This document shows, in pieces, positions 3,619 to 60,620 of a stretch of 64,000 nucleotides of DNA (its first letter is position 1; each line of letters starts with the position of its first letter). Origin of the DNA: Desulfatitalea alkaliphila (GTDB taxonomy: Bacteria > Desulfobacterota > Desulfobacteria > Desulfobacterales > Desulfosarcinaceae). A program made the translations under genes and the position numbers. The stretch lies in the NCBI RefSeq assembly GCF_022968795.1, contig NZ_JALJRB010000002.1:248001-312000 (forward strand). The letters run 5' to 3'. A model generated the notes under the pieces. The model had not been told where the DNA came from. It searched no databases and saw nothing but the letters and a program-made list of their open reading frames with translations.

Positions 3619-4232
3619 GCGCCATTTCGCAATGAATTTCCGGCACCGCGCCATTCTCATCGTCGATGGGCGTGGTGCCGATCAATGTCCATGCATCCTG
3701 CAACTTTTTCAACTGCCCCCAAATGTTCTCGAACCGCATTTTCCTTGACATCCGGTTCCATATGGCTTCTGATGAAATCAGCAGTTGCCCTTTCGTCCAC
3801 AAACCTCCAAACAGGAGGTGTCTCAATGGATACGCCCCTCAAAATTCCTGAATAATGCCTCCTTGGGGCAACGCGCTCCATGGAGGCCTACCCATCATTT
3901 GCCATCAGCGCCAAAGCCAAACCCATTGCGAAATGGGGACGGAAAGCCACGGGTCTCGAAATAGAATTTCCGACACCTGCTTGCTGGATTTATCAGGCCC
4001 TTCTTCAGGACTTTGGTTTCAAAGACAGCCGAGCTGCCGAGGGTGACATCGTTAAGCGCACCCCAGGTAGTGCTCGGCATTTTTTTGGGGTTTGCGAAAA
4101 TTCGATAGGGACGGATAACGCGAAGCCCCTCCACTCCCCTTATCGGATGGATGCGGTTTTCTGCCGAAACCGAATTTCAATCACAACGAAGCGCTCGACA
4201 GTTAGCAACCCACACGACAAAGGAGATTTGCC
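3619..4232. other. Gene-poor 614-nt spacer
   Basis: I see no convincing gene here. Short open frames exist on both strands (for example minus 3657-3881, whose reading contains RFVDERATADFIRSHMEP), but none has a good ribosome site or a recognised family. An imperfect inverted repeat (GGCACC at 3642-3647 with GGTGCC at 3674-3679 and further internal pairing) follows the kinase stop codon and could be a weak transcript end. A second hairpin with a T run is listed separately. The stretch may hold gene remnants. Confidence 0.4.
4035..4086 (+). terminator. Possible intrinsic terminator with long loop
   Basis: TGCCGAG (4035-4041) is complementary to CTCGGCA (4073-4079) and is followed directly by seven T residues (4080-4086). 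The 31-nt loop is longer than usual, which lowers confidence. It would end plus-strand transcription before the exported protein gene at 4233. Confidence 0.4.
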
Positions 4233-56100: not shown

Positions 56101-56793
56101 GTGACTGGACGGGAACAGGTTGCCTATCAAAGTTTTGCGGCGTCCACAACGACCACAGTGATGGATCGCAGGTGGCTGTTGCCGAACGTATTTGAACTTG
56201 AACTCCGCCGTCCGCCGGATCTTTACTTGCAGGCGGGCCATGCCATTCGGCTGACTCACCAAGCCTATCAACGTTATTACTCACCCATATCCGCGCCGGA
56301 CGATGGGCGTCTGCGACTTTGCATCAGAATCATCAACCCCCAAGGGTTGGCGTCTTATTTATCAACCGCCGAAATCGGTTCATCCATCGGGATCTGCGGC
56401 CCCTTCGGGTACTTCAACTTCAGCCCCTCGTCCCGGTCACCCGTTTTCATCGCCACCGACACCGGCGTCGCGCCGTTTGTGTCAATGGTGCGTTCCGGAG
56501 TCGCCGGTTTCACCATGCTGCAGGGTGCCCGCTCCGAGAAGGAACTTTTTTACCGCGATCTTTTCGAATCCCATGCCCGCAAATATGTCCCCTGCATTTG
56601 CGATACGCCGAACGACGACATCGAACAGTGCGACCGGTATCACCGCAAACTGGTCGATACCCTAAAAGAACATATCGAACCAGGGCAATATGATTTTTAT
56701 CTTTGCGGATGGCAAAAGATGATCAAATCGGTCACCAACATCGTCGACACCTTGTACCCCCATTCGCACGTCTACACCGAAGTTTTTTACTAA
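56101..56793 (+). CDS. FAD/NAD(P)H oxidoreductase, ferredoxin-NADP reductase-like
   Basis: This is a 230-aa flavin reductase of the ferredoxin-NADP reductase fold. FAD-binding RYYSPIS (an RxYS motif, residues about 60) and the phosphate loop ICGPFGYF are present. The NAD(P) motif IATDTGVAPFVSMVRSG and the C-terminal YTEVFY, a typical ending of the family, also fit. The start is GTG 56101, with AGGAGG 8 nt upstream. There is no 2Fe-2S domain, so it passes electrons to another carrier. It is the first gene of a run ending in a selenocysteine thioredoxin-like protein, making that protein a candidate acceptor. The spacing to the next gene is 55 nt. Confidence 0.85.
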   Translation: MTGREQVAYQSFAASTTTTVMDRRWLLPNVFELELRRPPDLYLQAGHAIRLTHQAYQRYYSPISAPDDGRLRLCIRIINPQGLASYLSTAEIGSSIGICGPFGYFNFSPSSRSPVFIATDTGVAPFVSMVRSGVAGFTMLQGARSEKELFYRDLFESHARKYVPCICDTPNDDIEQCDRYHRKLVDTLKEHIEPGQYDFYLCGWQKMIKSVTNIVDTLYPHSHVYTEVFY

Positions 56794-56848: not shown

Positions 56849-57805
56849 ATGACCGACTGCTGCCAACCCCTTCGTTATATTTACAAGACGCAAGGGGTCT
56901 GCCCCCCGGAAATACATATTCAGATCAGTGGCAACACCCTTACCCGGGTGCGATTTGTGGGCGGTGGTTGCCCCGGCAATGCCACCCTTGTGGGCCGTTT
57001 ACTGCAGGATCGCCCGGTCGAAGACATTATGCCGTTGATCGAAGGCATACCATGCCGAGACAACACCTCGTGCGCCGACCAGTTGGCACAGGCCCTTCGA
57101 GCTATTGAAAAGGGCGACCTGGCCCCCGCCGCCCCGTTTCGTCTGGCACAGGACCCGACGGTCAGATCCCGCATCGGTTTCATCGGCGAAGTCGGCGGCA
57201 ATCCACAGGCACTTCGGTCCGCATTTGAAACGGTGGCCCAGGCTGGCGCCGAAACGGTTGTTTGCCTGGGCAACATCACCTGCCCCACCCGAAATAACGA
57301 CGAAACCATTAAAGCGTTGCGGCGATCGGGCGTGAACGCCATCCAAGGCCCCAACGATTGGGCCTATGCCTGCGGCGTGGAGACATCCGCCTTTTCACCG
57401 ATAACCGCATCATCTCGGGATTGGTTGCTGCAATTGCCGCAAGCCTATGTTTTTCAACTGGGGGACAAGAAATGTTTGGCCTTCCATGGCGATTTCCTCC
57501 AAACACTGCCCGGATACTCGGATTACGACCCATATGCCCTTGAAATCAACATGATCGCCGGACTTGCCTTGTTCATGCAGGATGAAACCGTTTTTCCCGC
57601 CCTGGCGGAGATGACCCCGCAATTCACTGCGGATGTGATTCTTTTCGCCCAGACGGACCGGTGGGGGCATTGGCAGGTCGGTGGAAAAGATATTGTCGGC
57701 ATCGGCCCGATTGCGGACGGCACTGTAGTGTCGGTCGGTCTTCTGCAGGATGGGCCCGAAAAGCGCCTATTCAACACTTTGCAAGTTGGGGTGAATGATG
57801 CATAA
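56849..57805 (+). CDS. TSCPD-domain protein fused to a degenerate metallophosphoesterase domain
   Basis: This is a 318-aa two-domain protein. The N terminus (about 1-90) is a TSCPD domain: YKTQGVCPPEIHIQI, VRFVGGGCPGNATLV, and the eponymous TSCPD block reads NTSCADQLAQAL. The rest (about 105-318) follows a calcineurin-like phosphoesterase pattern with its metal ligands replaced. IGEVGGNPQAL stands where SDIHGNxEAL is expected, CLGNIT for LGDIV, QGPND for GNHD, and DRWGHWQVGG for GHTHRPxxxx. So it should not bind the usual metals. It ends within the start of the selenoprotein gene (ATG 57795 overlaps), so the two are translationally coupled. Confidence 0.75.
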   Translation: MTDCCQPLRYIYKTQGVCPPEIHIQISGNTLTRVRFVGGGCPGNATLVGRLLQDRPVEDIMPLIEGIPCRDNTSCADQLAQALRAIEKGDLAPAAPFRLAQDPTVRSRIGFIGEVGGNPQALRSAFETVAQAGAETVVCLGNITCPTRNNDETIKALRRSGVNAIQGPNDWAYACGVETSAFSPITASSRDWLLQLPQAYVFQLGDKKCLAFHGDFLQTLPGYSDYDPYALEINMIAGLALFMQDETVFPALAEMTPQFTADVILFAQTDRWGHWQVGGKDIVGIGPIADGTVVSVGLLQDGPEKRLFNTLQVGVNDA

Positions 57806-58091
57806 GTCTGTTGTCGTGGATGTTTTGCTGACCGATTTCAACCAGTGAGTGGCCTGCGTCTACATGGCGGAAGCGGTAAAGGTTTTACCGGACGACATTC
57901 AGCAGATCATCACCGTCGACAACTGGGACATGCGCACCCGCCAGGGCGTGCAACGTTTCAGGGAGCTGAAAGCCAAATCGCTACCGAGCATCGCCTTGGA
58001 TGGCGAGCTGGTTTACGAATCGCTGATTCCCATGCAGGAAGAACTGATCGCGGCCATCCGACAGCGTTATGTAGCTAAGAATAAGGATTAG
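57795..58091 (+). CDS. saoT: Thioredoxin-like selenoprotein with UxxC motif (SaoT-type)
   Basis: This is a 98-codon gene with an in-frame TGA at 57846-57848 read here as selenocysteine. Before it is MMHKSVVVDVLLTDFNQ, a beta strand leading to a redox site. After it is VACVYMAEAVKVLPDD, so the site is U-V-A-C, the position of a thioredoxin CxxC motif. The fold continues with ITVDNWD and the cis-Pro loop SLPSIALDGELVYE. A perfect 7-bp stem with loop GGT (57874-57890) lies 25 nt after the TGA, in the range for a bacterial SECIS. The ATG overlaps the previous stop. Without Sec, the frame splits into two fragments, neither sensible alone. It agrees with the family I remember as thioredoxin-like (seleno)protein SaoT. 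Confidence 0.8.
57849..57890 (+). promoter_or_regulatory. SECIS-like element for selenocysteine insertion
   Basis: In the mRNA directly after the TGA, CGGTAAA (57874-57880) pairs perfectly with TTTACCG (57884-57890), leaving a GGT loop. In bacterial SECIS elements the apical loop carries a conserved G and lies about 16-37 nt after UGA; here GG is 32-33 nt downstream. The coding sequence VKVLP is kept at the same time. Confidence 0.65.
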
Positions 58092-58094
58092 TGA

Positions 58095-59075
58095 GTGTTT
58101 CTGGAAGATGTCATCATAGAAGGGTTCAAGTCCTTCTCCATCAAAACGGAGATGGGGTTCCAACCCGGGATCAGCGTCATCGTCGGCAACAACGGGGTTG
58201 GCAAATCCAATATCCTCGACGCCATTGTGTGGGCCTTGGGGGAAAACGATTTGGGCCGCCTCCGATGTTTGGACCGTCAGGAGCTTTTTTTTGCCGGCAG
58301 CGAGAATTGCCCTCCGGCGCAAAGGGTTTCCGTCGAGCTGAGGTTTCGGCATGAAAAAGGGGCCGCGACCCCCGGATTGAATATCCGGCGGGAATTGGAA
58401 AGAAACGGTCCGGACCGATTTTTCCTCGACGACCACGCCTGCTCACCCGACCAAGTAAGCAAGACGCTGGCCGCCCACCGGCTGCACCAATCCCTGAAAA
58501 CCATTGTCCGGCAAGAACGGATCAACGACTTGCTGCTGGTGGATCCTGACGAGCGCCTCGAAATGGTATGCGCCCTTTTGAAACTGCCCTCTACCGCCGG
58601 CTTCGACGCGTCACTGCAGAACGCCATCGATGAAACCTTCCGCCGCTACATGCTGCATCTCGTTCCGGATGGCGCCGTTGCGCTGAAATTGATATCCCAC
58701 AACGGTCGCCGGGGTATCGATCTTGTGATCACGCTGCCGGGCAACCGTACACGCAAGGCACACCAACTTTCAGGCGGTGAAAAGGCGGTTGCCAGCCTGG
58801 CTTTGAAACTGGCACTGTTCCGCCAACTTGAAAACCCTTTCTTCCTGCTGGATGAAGTGGAGCCGTCGCTTGACTACAGCCACCACAAGTCCATGCAGGC
58901 CTTTCTCAAAGCGGTGGCTACAGATACGCAGCTGATCATGATCACCCACCTGCGCAGCACCATTGAGCTGGCCGACACCCTTCACGGCGTGCGCACCCGG
59001 TGGGACGGTTCATCCTTCATGAAGTTCTACTTCGACATGGACGAGCGGTTGCTCAGGCTCTACAAGTGTTGTTAA
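58095..59075 (+). CDS. Coil-less SMC-type head ATPase ending in Cys-Cys
   Basis: This is a 326-aa ATPase made of joined SMC N- and C-lobes with no coiled coil or hinge. The N-lobe opens MFLEDVIIEGFKSFSIKTEM, with Walker A VGNNGVGKSNILDAIVWALG (residues about 35-54). The C-lobe has signature HQLSGGEKAVASLALKLALF (about 222), Walker B PFFLLDEVEPSLD and D-loop, and H-loop MITHL. Ordinary SMC proteins are about 1,150 aa. It ends RLYKCC, two cysteines at the very C terminus. GTG 58095 is preceded by AAGGA; its stop overlaps the convergent CobW gene. It ends the operon containing the selenoprotein. Confidence 0.75.
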   Translation: MFLEDVIIEGFKSFSIKTEMGFQPGISVIVGNNGVGKSNILDAIVWALGENDLGRLRCLDRQELFFAGSENCPPAQRVSVELRFRHEKGAATPGLNIRRELERNGPDRFFLDDHACSPDQVSKTLAAHRLHQSLKTIVRQERINDLLLVDPDERLEMVCALLKLPSTAGFDASLQNAIDETFRRYMLHLVPDGAVALKLISHNGRRGIDLVITLPGNRTRKAHQLSGGEKAVASLALKLALFRQLENPFFLLDEVEPSLDYSHHKSMQAFLKAVATDTQLIMITHLRSTIELADTLHGVRTRWDGSSFMKFYFDMDERLLRLYKCC

Positions 59076-60055
59076 ACAAGGCACTCCCTGAGACCCCCCT
59101 CGATTGCATCGACATCGACGTTCCACGCTATCAAGGCCAGGCGCGTCGTCTGTTCTCCGCTCCATGGATATCGATCCCACTTCCCGCCGACGAAATTGAT
59201 GAAGTCGGTGCCGTCGCGATGGCGAACCGTACCTTTGATGCGGAACACTTCCAGGGGAAGGGTTTGGAGCCAATGGTGGAAGCGATCCTGGTCCATGGCC
59301 TTCGAGCTGACGAAAGAAAAGGTCGAGAAATGTTCCGTTGCCATGGTGGGCGCATGTTCACTGAGGTGCCCCGGTTGAATCGCTTCAAACAACTGGCCGT
59401 CTGTGACGACGGTCGCCAGGGGTTTTCCTGTTGCGTCTTCCACCGGCGCAAAGAGCGTGGCGGCATCCACGGCGCAGTGAACCGTGGGGACCACCTGGCA
59501 ATCGGGAAGGGCGGCATGCATCTCTTTGAGGTACAATGAAACCCGGCTGGGATCAACCTGATCGATTTTGTTGAGCAGAATCAAATGGGCGGCTTCAAGT
59601 TGATGGTAGAACAGCGGGCCGAAATGGTCACGGGCTTCCCAGAAATCGGCATCCAGGACCGTGACCACTTTTTGCAAATGCATCATGGCGGCCAATTGCG
59701 GGTCCTTCATAAGGCTCAGAATGGTGGTTGGGTCGGCGACGCCGGAGGCTTCGATGAAAATCCGATGCGGCTCGAAATCTTCCCAGAGACGCATCAGCGA
59801 CTGCTTCAAATCGGCGCTCAAGGTGCAGCAGATGCAACCGCTGGTCAATTCAACGATGTCCGTTCCGGACGTTCGAAGCAAGTCGCCGTCGATCCCCACC
59901 TTTCCGAATTCGTTGACCAGCACGACCGTTTTGGCGGCGTCGGTCCGCCAATTGAGGACTCTTTTGAGCAAGGTGGTTTTGCCGGCGCCGAGAAATCCAG
60001 CCACCAGGATGACGGCGGTTTTGCCTTCTTCCGAGGATGTTGCGTGCAGATGCAT
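59072..60055 (-). CDS. CobW/YjiA-family metallochaperone GTPase
   Basis: This is a 327-aa G3E GTPase of the CobW/COG0523 family, which insert or traffic metals. Walker A VAGFLGAGKTTLLKRVL (about 18-34), the metal-binding CxCC motif in SGCICCTLSADL (about 74), Walker B FIEASGVADP and NKxD LNKIDQVD are all intact. The C-terminal CobW_C domain (FRIKGTVRHRDGTDFINFVG) is present. Zinc is the usual metal of this class, but neighbours suggest a thiol/selenol-linked metal role. ATG 60055 follows GGGAG. It is 46 nt downstream of the GcvH-like gene on the same strand. Confidence 0.9.
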   Translation of the reverse strand: MHLHATSSEEGKTAVILVAGFLGAGKTTLLKRVLNWRTDAAKTVVLVNEFGKVGIDGDLLRTSGTDIVELTSGCICCTLSADLKQSLMRLWEDFEPHRIFIEASGVADPTTILSLMKDPQLAAMMHLQKVVTVLDADFWEARDHFGPLFYHQLEAAHLILLNKIDQVDPSRVSLYLKEMHAALPDCQVVPTVHCAVDAATLFAPVEDATGKPLATVVTDGQLFEAIQPGHLSEHAPTMATEHFSTFSFVSSKAMDQDRFHHWLQTLPLEVFRIKGTVRHRDGTDFINFVGGKWDRYPWSGEQTTRLALIAWNVDVDAIEGGLRECLV

Positions 60056-60101: not shown

Positions 60102-60620
60102 TCATGACTTGCTTAGTTTTTGTTGGCCGATGCCGGAGTATACCGCCTTGCATATACCTGAAACACCGCCTTTGAGCCCTTGCGGATTCTTGCACCCTTC
60201 CGAAGCCTGAAGGCTTGCAAGGTATTTTTCGGGAAGCGCCAAGGAGTGGTAAGCTTCCCAGGGGTCGCCGACGGGCCGGATTTTGAACAACCATCCTTCG
60301 CCATAAGGATCTTTTCCCAGGATATCAAGATGTTCTTTTAAAGTTTTATGGTAGTGTACGGTCCCGGGTATGGGCGTTTCCAAATACAGAATTTTTCCGG
60401 TTATGGCGAAAATGGCGGAATCGCCGGATTGGACCGGTTCACCCTCTTGCCGCAGCCAGTCGACATCTTTGATGCCTCCCATCAACACCAGGGCCGGCTG
60501 CGTAAGGCCGAACACCAGAAAGGCATCCTGTTTGCAGCACCAAAGTCCTTGTGGAATGTGGTACCGGCGGTCATCGGGGACCTCGACCGATTGACCCAAA
60601 AAATGTTCAATTACGATCAT
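60102..60620 (-). CDS. GcvH-like lipoyl-domain protein
   Basis: This is a 172-aa protein with the glycine cleavage H-protein fold: HIPQGLWCCKQDAFLVFGLT, later GEPVQSGDSAIFAITGKILY, and the block DPYGEGWLFKIRP that is characteristic of GcvH. The lysine of ITGKILY aligns with the lipoylated lysine of H proteins (usually ESVKAV), so lipoylation is possible. A 40-residue C-terminal extension (EGCKNPQGLKGGVSGICKAV) adds two cysteines, and a Cys-Cys pair lies near residue 28. No glycine cleavage genes are present, so it is probably a carrier of another kind, as LbpA is in sulfur oxidation. It is cotranscribed with CobW. Confidence 0.75.
   Translation of the reverse strand: MIVIEHFLGQSVEVPDDRRYHIPQGLWCCKQDAFLVFGLTQPALVLMGGIKDVDWLRQEGEPVQSGDSAIFAITGKILYLETPIPGTVHYHKTLKEHLDILGKDPYGEGWLFKIRPVGDPWEAYHSLALPEKYLASLQASEGCKNPQGLKGGVSGICKAVYSGIGQQKLSKS

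Follow-up and report, generated by a model that had tools for sequence, protein, structure and literature searches.

The closest described counterparts of the gene analysed here are small thioredoxin-like proteins, some of which carry selenocysteine (Sec, U) in a UxxC active site. Proteins of the HUIPC family (NF047660) share the small thioredoxin-like architecture and the UxxC active site with the protein presented here and are homologous to it over residues 12-90, but have a HUIPC motif in place of QU[VALIT]AC, and our protein reaches 48 bits against NF047660, under the cut-off of 105. Small archaeal thioredoxins of the MJ0307 type (PDB 1fo5 and 1nho) are of similar length (85 aa) and give the best profile matches among solved structures; to our knowledge, no Sec has been recorded in them. 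SaoT (NF040730) is likewise a thioredoxin-like UxxC selenoprotein (PMC13188914, Table 1), although our protein gives no NF040730 match at E 0.1. As far as covered here, the table of that May 2026 review contains HUIPC and lacks a QUxAC family. The bacterial SECIS (bSECIS) model requires a loop of 3-9 nt with G in the first two positions and a stem of 4-16 bp (PMC13188914), the loop lying 16-37 nt after the UGA (PMC13188914, section 5). Type 1 mlp gene clusters, which are common in Sec-using anaerobes, encode a corrinoid protein, a reductive activase and MtaA-family homologues (Kountz and Balskus, PMC10418091). The loci described below resemble these clusters at the level of gene families only, and neither a thioredoxin-like subunit nor a TSCPD protein or an SMC-head ATPase is mentioned in the parts of that paper covered here.

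We analysed a stretch of 64,000 nt from Desulfatitalea alkaliphila (hereafter the window; Table 1). Judged by sequence evidence, the gene at 57798-58091 almost certainly encodes a selenocysteine-containing protein, and the selenoprotein reading proposed in the initial annotation is supported. With TGA read as U, the translation is MMHKSVVVDVLLTDFNQ-U-VACVYMAEAVK...VAKNKD, followed by the stop codon TAG (58089-58091). Direct reading and translation agree with the earlier description of the frame 57795-58091 as open save for the TGA, which is followed by GTG GCC TGC (Val-Ala-Cys) as stated there. The same annotation had started the gene at ATG 57795, overlapping the end of the upstream gene (TAA 57803-57805); the overlap holds, and the start was refined to ATG 57798, which is the likelier one because GGGGTG lies 4 nt before it and ATG occupies the same column in three relatives (L035, L039 and L041). 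Three further relatives (L036, L037 and L038) have a Leu codon in this column.

Table 1. Features of the putative selenoprotein locus; coordinates are positions in the window.
Feature	Position	Strand	Remarks
FAD/NAD-binding oxidoreductase, ferredoxin-reductase-like	56101..56793	+	55 nt upstream of the TSCPD gene; homologue near 10/43 loci
Upstream partner: TIGR03905-type 4-Cys TSCPD domain and weakly metallophosphoesterase-like domain	56849..57805	+	
GGGGTG, likely ribosome-binding site of ATG 57798	57788..57793	+	Motif read directly; function inferred
Predicted selenoprotein CDS, QUVAC thioredoxin-like	57798..58091	+	97 aa from ATG 57798 (98 aa if ATG 57795); read directly, homologues
UGA, predicted to be decoded as selenocysteine; first position of UxxC	57846..57848	+	TGA in 44/44 Sec-form sequences, Cys codon in 28/28 QCAAC paralogues
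Predicted SECIS hairpin CGGTAAA-GGT-TTTACCG	57874..57890	+	Loop 32 nt after UGA; stem starts 25 nt after TGA
Downstream partner: SMC-head ATPase without coiled coil	58095..59075	+	326 aa, C-terminal ...YKCC
CobW-family GTPase, convergent neighbour	59072..60055	-	CobW gene near 32/43 Sec-form loci

As the initial annotation had anticipated for standard gene callers, the sole entry of the ORF list in this frame is a headless 80-aa ORF beginning at GTG 57849. This fragment, all that mechanical ORF calling returns, favours a reading in which the UGA is an ordinary stop and the gene is either the 80-aa ORF or, as a whole, a pseudogene, and the RNA folding of the single sequence, which is not significant (z = 0.23), points the same way. 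This reading is nevertheless extremely improbable. Protein conservation runs on upstream of the UGA, where the residues of D-V-L-L-T-D-F-x-Q are kept in 42-44 of 44 Sec sequences with several codons in use per residue, the Sec position aligns with the catalytic Cys of the paralogues, and both UGA and hairpin are kept in 44 sequences. An ordinary stop or pseudogene was discarded given the TGA retained in 40/40 Sec-form genomes and the kept hairpin and codons. Decoding of the UGA as Trp was rejected as well, the aligned residue of the homologues being Cys and not Trp.

These comparisons draw on a profile of 13 orthologues (A1), which was searched in 389 genomes of a class sample and matched in 57 of them, the own genome included. 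The Sec form was found in 40/389 genomes (counted from the listing, own genome included), with TGA at the codon in all 40. Two copies in one genome (G035) bring the class set to 41 sequences, which together with L038, L040 and L042 make up the 44 Sec sequences; their active-site motif across relatives is QU[VALIT]AC. A Cys paralogue with the motif QCAAC is present in 47/389 class genomes (counted from the listing; the copy in G025 is partial), namely in 38/40 Sec-form genomes versus 9/349 others. All 28 QCAAC paralogues read have a Cys codon at the position of the UGA. Homologues thus cross the TGA with U or C aligned there, in line with what the initial annotation expected, and neither of the findings that it named as refuting, the lack of a TGA-spanning homologue or of Sec machinery, was made.

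The first homologue search matched 10/60 genomes, own included. Copies in five of these (G001, G014, G031, G035 and G057) were 69-79% identical with TGA inside, that in G025 was 48% identical, and a second homologue set was 38-44% identical and contained no stop. Nine named loci were found, including an Olavius-associated MAG and Desulfotomaculum copahuensis strain LMa1, with the locus L043 truncated. In the phylum of D. copahuensis, 17/398 genomes match the profile; three genomes (its own and two others) have a strong TGA form, each directly followed by a second TGA copy, and weaker TGA-bearing rows occur in G581, G625, G697 and others. In two Bacillota loci (L042:6285-6539 and L040:6309-6563), the second TGA thioredoxin-like gene, directly after the QUAAC gene, has the motif QUASG and no resolving Cys. 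Separately, the second selenoprotein gene copy in G035 (C667; L052:1273-1530) contains an extra TGA at an otherwise conserved Trp codon, which may reflect either decay or an assembly error.

The genome of D. alkaliphila (5.07 Mb, 99.7% complete) encodes the Sec machinery that the initial annotation had suggested checking, each component above its curated cut-off: tRNA-Sec (73.5 bits, cut-off 47), selA (605 bits, cut-off 268), selB (379.6 bits, cut-off 242) and selD (367 bits, cut-off 125), the last of which itself contains one TGA. SelB also exceeds its cut-off in the genomes of L042 and L040. Among 80 hand-picked genomes, some SelB match was obtained in 80/80 and a match above the cut-off in 71/80, comprising 33/39 Sec-form genomes versus 38/41 others; the six Sec-form genomes with no SelB above the cut-off are G129, G319, G328, G334, G367 and G386, of which G129 is rated 97% complete. 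As SelB is nearly universal in the order, co-occurrence with the machinery has no discriminating power.

A 7-bp hairpin with a GGT loop, described in the initial annotation as lying 25 nt past the TGA, was found, and hairpins obeying the bSECIS loop and spacing rules are present in 44/44 Sec sequences, with the loop at 32 nt in 38 and at 31 nt in 6. The five inner pairs (26-40 to 30-36) are standard in 44/44. The top pair is A-T in 34, G-C in 4, G-T in 1 and mismatched in 5 sequences; of the two outer pairs that were counted, one is standard in 33 and the other in 30 of 44. Furthermore, the stem codons are frozen (Val GTA 44/44, Ser TCG 40/40, Lys AAG 39/39) or nearly so (Leu TTA 41/44, TTG 3/44), while most conserved positions before the UGA, and most of those in the QCAAC paralogue, use several codons; the exception, apart from Met and Trp, is Gln CAG (27/28 in the QCAAC paralogue). 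The Val codon GTC at 57858-57860 (+ strand), four codons after the UGA, is invariant as well (44/44), although it is not part of the stem and the hairpin offers no reason for it. The 28 QCAAC paralogues do not share this stem: pair 27-39 occurs in 0/28, pair 26-40 in 4/28 and pair 31-35 in 2/28.

Energies are less distinctive. The isolated hairpin of the window gene has -5.1 kcal/mol, and a 54-nt RNA reaches -12.2 kcal/mol against the bSECIS energy limit of -7.5 kcal/mol, a value no better than that of shuffles, so that single-sequence folding is unremarkable. Under a synonymous-codon null, the mean best hairpin was -5.29 observed versus -2.34 shuffled, and hairpins at -4 or lower were found in 34/44 Sec sequences versus 21.3% of synonymous shuffles; 13.3% of the shuffles did as well, and the codon pool itself held the frozen codons. 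In the QCAAC control, a qualifying hairpin was absent in 9/28 and present in 19/28 in five registers, 8 of these having a loop starting at 33 nt and 8 an energy of -4 or lower. Because shuffles and 19/28 paralogues also give hairpins, the case for a SECIS element rests on the kept pairs and codons rather than on energy, and the evidence for this predicted element is one of conservation, not stability.

An AlphaFold2 model of the protein (pLDDT 91) adopts a thioredoxin fold, with the order beta-alpha-beta-alpha-beta-beta-alpha, the catalytic residue before helix 1 and a Pro (Pro64, invariant) before the third strand. The family profile gave its best matches among PDB sequences to 1fo5 (5e-07) and 1nho (1e-06), and a direct phmmer search of the selenoprotein against PDB sequences yielded nothing convincing (best E 0.24). 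The UxxC thioredoxin fold of the initial annotation was therefore retained from the model and PDB matches, while its family was reassigned: the protein is not a classical thioredoxin and forms a sister branch of HUIPC (NF047660). No Pfam match to PF00085 was obtained at E 0.1, the only Pfam match being Thioredoxin_3 (PF13192) at 15.2 bits, below its cut-off of 24.8; PHROGs gave no match, and this protein stays below the cut-off of every NCBIfam model. HUIPC membership itself was rejected on score, motif (QUVAC, not HUIPC) and placement in a separate clade, and SaoT membership for want of a match at the threshold given above. NF047660 matches 13/13 of the A1 orthologues (best E 8.8e-13). In the tree, the Sec form and the QCAAC paralogues constitute a branch apart from HUIPC with a 100/100 split, although columns are few and deep forks unsure; the Sec branch has U in 46/46 rows, and HUIPC-type rows have U or C. 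The genome of D. alkaliphila also contains a true HUIPC-family selenoprotein with the motif HUVPC (G000:C12:335122-335385; L045:5122-5385, minus strand), scoring 137.6 bits against the cut-off of 105.

The putative selenoprotein, the TSCPD protein and the coil-less SMC-head ATPase are encoded in one tight gene run, in which 8 nt are common to the TSCPD and selenoprotein genes and the SMC-head gene begins 3 nt past the selenoprotein stop. The initial annotation, whose selenoprotein identification stands, had included neither this operon nor the link to corrinoid methyltransferases described below. The TSCPD protein scores 76.2 bits against TIGR03905 (cut-off 67.7) and has four Cys that are invariant in 21 rows; a search of PDB sequences gave no match for it, and its second domain matches Metallophos_2 in 9/21 rows only. 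This domain resembles calcineurin-like phosphoesterases, and by eye its metal-ligand motifs look replaced, with I-G-E-V-G-G-N in place of what we take to be the expected D-x-H-G-N. The ATPase has the motifs GNNGVGKS, LSGGEK and FFLLDE, and SMC head constructs match its model from end to end (PDB 5h68 and 1e69; rank 1 is 5h68 with TM 0.87 and 31% identity). In contrast to SMC proteins, it is a stand-alone head without coiled coil or hinge, and it ends in Cys-Cys in 17/17 aligned orthologues (17 of 24 listed), this tail lying in a low-confidence part of the model. Elsewhere in the window, a c-di-GMP-I-GGC riboswitch (3907-4042, + strand; 65.2 bits, gathering score 59) is the only Rfam match at gathering scores.

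A TSCPD gene lies within 1.1 kb upstream in 22/39 and a mini-SMC gene within 1.3 kb downstream in 22/37 Sec-form loci with enough contig. Among 80 genomes, which were hand-picked and not random and in which 7 of the 41 Sec-form negatives have a QCAAC paralogue, mini-SMC (E 1e-45) was found in 21/39 Sec-form genomes versus 0/41 others and TSCPD (E 1e-10) in 20/39 versus 0/41. The trio is not obligatory, since 18/39 Sec-form genomes lack a mini-SMC match and 19/39 a TSCPD match, some contigs being short. Family f38 has a different layout (QCAAC-YCLPC-HUIPC-QUxAC-small thioredoxin-CobW), some of these genes being absent in places.

Within 9 kb of 43 Sec-form genes (from 42 genomes, many of them related), genes were found for CobW (32), URO-D-type (22) and MtrH-type (16) methyltransferases, a corrinoid protein (13), an FAD/NAD oxidoreductase (10), DUF1638 (9) and RACo (8), together with genes that we take to be CobO-like (15) and thioredoxin-reductase-like (6). 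Roughly one in three of the 43 loci also holds a HUIPC- or HCIPC-type gene (U in 11, C in 5). A GcvH-related protein (NF045810) is encoded in the window at 60102-60620 (- strand; 242.7 bits, cut-off 150), and homologues lie near 7/43 Sec-form loci, the window included.

The prominence of CobW, the commonest neighbour, also bears on a role in metal or selenium handling, in which the protein would be a selenol/thiol carrier acting with the CobW GTPase, the TSCPD protein and the Cys-Cys ATPase so that metal is loaded into methyltransferases. The invariant Cys of the TSCPD protein and the Cys-Cys terminus of the ATPase fit such a role, which we regard as rather unlikely, given that redox chemistry is the usual job of UxxC thioredoxin folds. 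Further points in its favour are that SaoC, a Cys-Cys-COOH selenoprotein, is among the Sao genes in the covered part of PMC13188914 and that Sao is glossed as organometallic in that of PMC10418091.

In the Bacillota locus L132, a stretch of 14 kb around the Sec gene brings together homologues of TSCPD, mini-SMC, CobW, RACo and MtrH, two of URO-D and two of corrinoid protein. No methyltransferase gene was found beside the selenoprotein gene within the window of D. alkaliphila; a corrinoid cluster lies about 28-41 kb away on the same contig, containing genes for RACo, corrinoid protein, URO-D, MtrH and CobW, as well as presumably CobO-like and thioredoxin-reductase-like genes. The HUVPC, YCLLC and QCAAC paralogues are located in this cluster, 29-34 kb from the selenoprotein gene, and share one 20-kb stretch with its RACo, corrinoid protein, URO-D and MtrH genes.

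By our own count, weak profile matches fall inside frames of ~370-500 aa in fifteen genomes of the class sample and the D. copahuensis phylum (a 438-aa frame in G666 is a second TGA copy and was left out). The two frames read (L130:772-2133 and L131:854-2212) encode a URO-D/MtaA-type methyltransferase (171 and 194 bits against URO-D) with a C-terminal C-A-A-C thioredoxin-like domain, which in both fusions is of the Cys type and not the Sec type. In a two-sequence database, to which these E-values refer, the fused domains matched QCAAC at E 1e-15 and 7e-13 and the selenoprotein at E 2e-12 and 5e-12. This fusion to a homologous CAAC domain is good evidence that the thioredoxin-like superfamily works with corrinoid-type methyltransferases, evidence that bears on the superfamily rather than on the role of its Sec member. 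The fused Cys domain of L130 also gives a weak match to SaoT NF040730 (16.9 bits, below the cut-off of 65), and a distant kinship of SaoT with the family described here is therefore possible. Among the literature matches listed, no QU[VALIT]AC family, trio or URO-D-thioredoxin fusion was recognised; the source paper for HUIPC, reportedly Haft and Tolstoy 2025, lay outside this scope, and priority for the QU[VALIT]AC branch is uncertain.

The plain thioredoxin fold, the UxxC motif and the invariant Pro64 would also suit a general disulfide reductant, active in antioxidant defence or thiol homeostasis and not dedicated to corrinoid chemistry, and the FAD/NAD oxidoreductase upstream in the window and the presumed thioredoxin-reductase-like genes at 6/43 loci are consistent with it. 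Such a role appears unlikely in view of the patchy distribution (40/389), the linkage to TSCPD, mini-SMC, CobW and corrinoid-methyltransferase genes, the fusion of a homologue to a methyltransferase and the concentration of the QCAAC paralogue in Sec-form genomes.

We instead propose, with moderate confidence, that the protein is a thiol/selenol-disulfide redox partner of a corrinoid (B12)-dependent methyl-transfer system, which would comprise MtaA/URO-D-type and MtrH-type methyltransferases, a corrinoid protein, a RACo-like activator and the CobW GTPase, and in which it would act alongside QCAAC, YCLPC and HUIPC paralogues. Sec18 could attack a partner's disulfide, or else a thiol that is oxidised or bound to metal, and Cys21 would then resolve the partner-Sec18 bond. 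The likeliest partners may be the methyltransferase modules and, in the SMC-head ATPase, the Cys-Cys tail, which would be the most likely client in trio genomes, and the methyl-transfer machinery would thereby be held reduced or metal-loaded in anoxia. A more elaborate version, which we consider improbable, is that the trio constitutes an ATP-driven redox device: the Sec-thioredoxin would reduce the Cys-Cys of the SMC head (or exchange a methylated or metal-bound thiol), ATP-dependent head dimerisation would use this switch, and corrinoid methyltransferases would stay reduced, metal-loaded and active. We know of no other SMC-family ATPase with a selenoprotein partner rather than DNA.

The findings would add a Sec branch to the thioredoxin-like family whose genes are truncated by standard ORF calling, and the conservation of the predicted SECIS element is high enough for use in searches. 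They also expose a conserved operon of anaerobic bacteria that couples the putative selenoprotein gene to one for a stand-alone SMC head with a Cys-Cys terminus, and the methyltransferase fusion ties the thioredoxin-like family to B12-type methyltransferases. It thereby becomes testable why several thioredoxin-like paralogues, some apparently with selenium, are maintained in anaerobes that have corrinoid methyl-transfer clusters.
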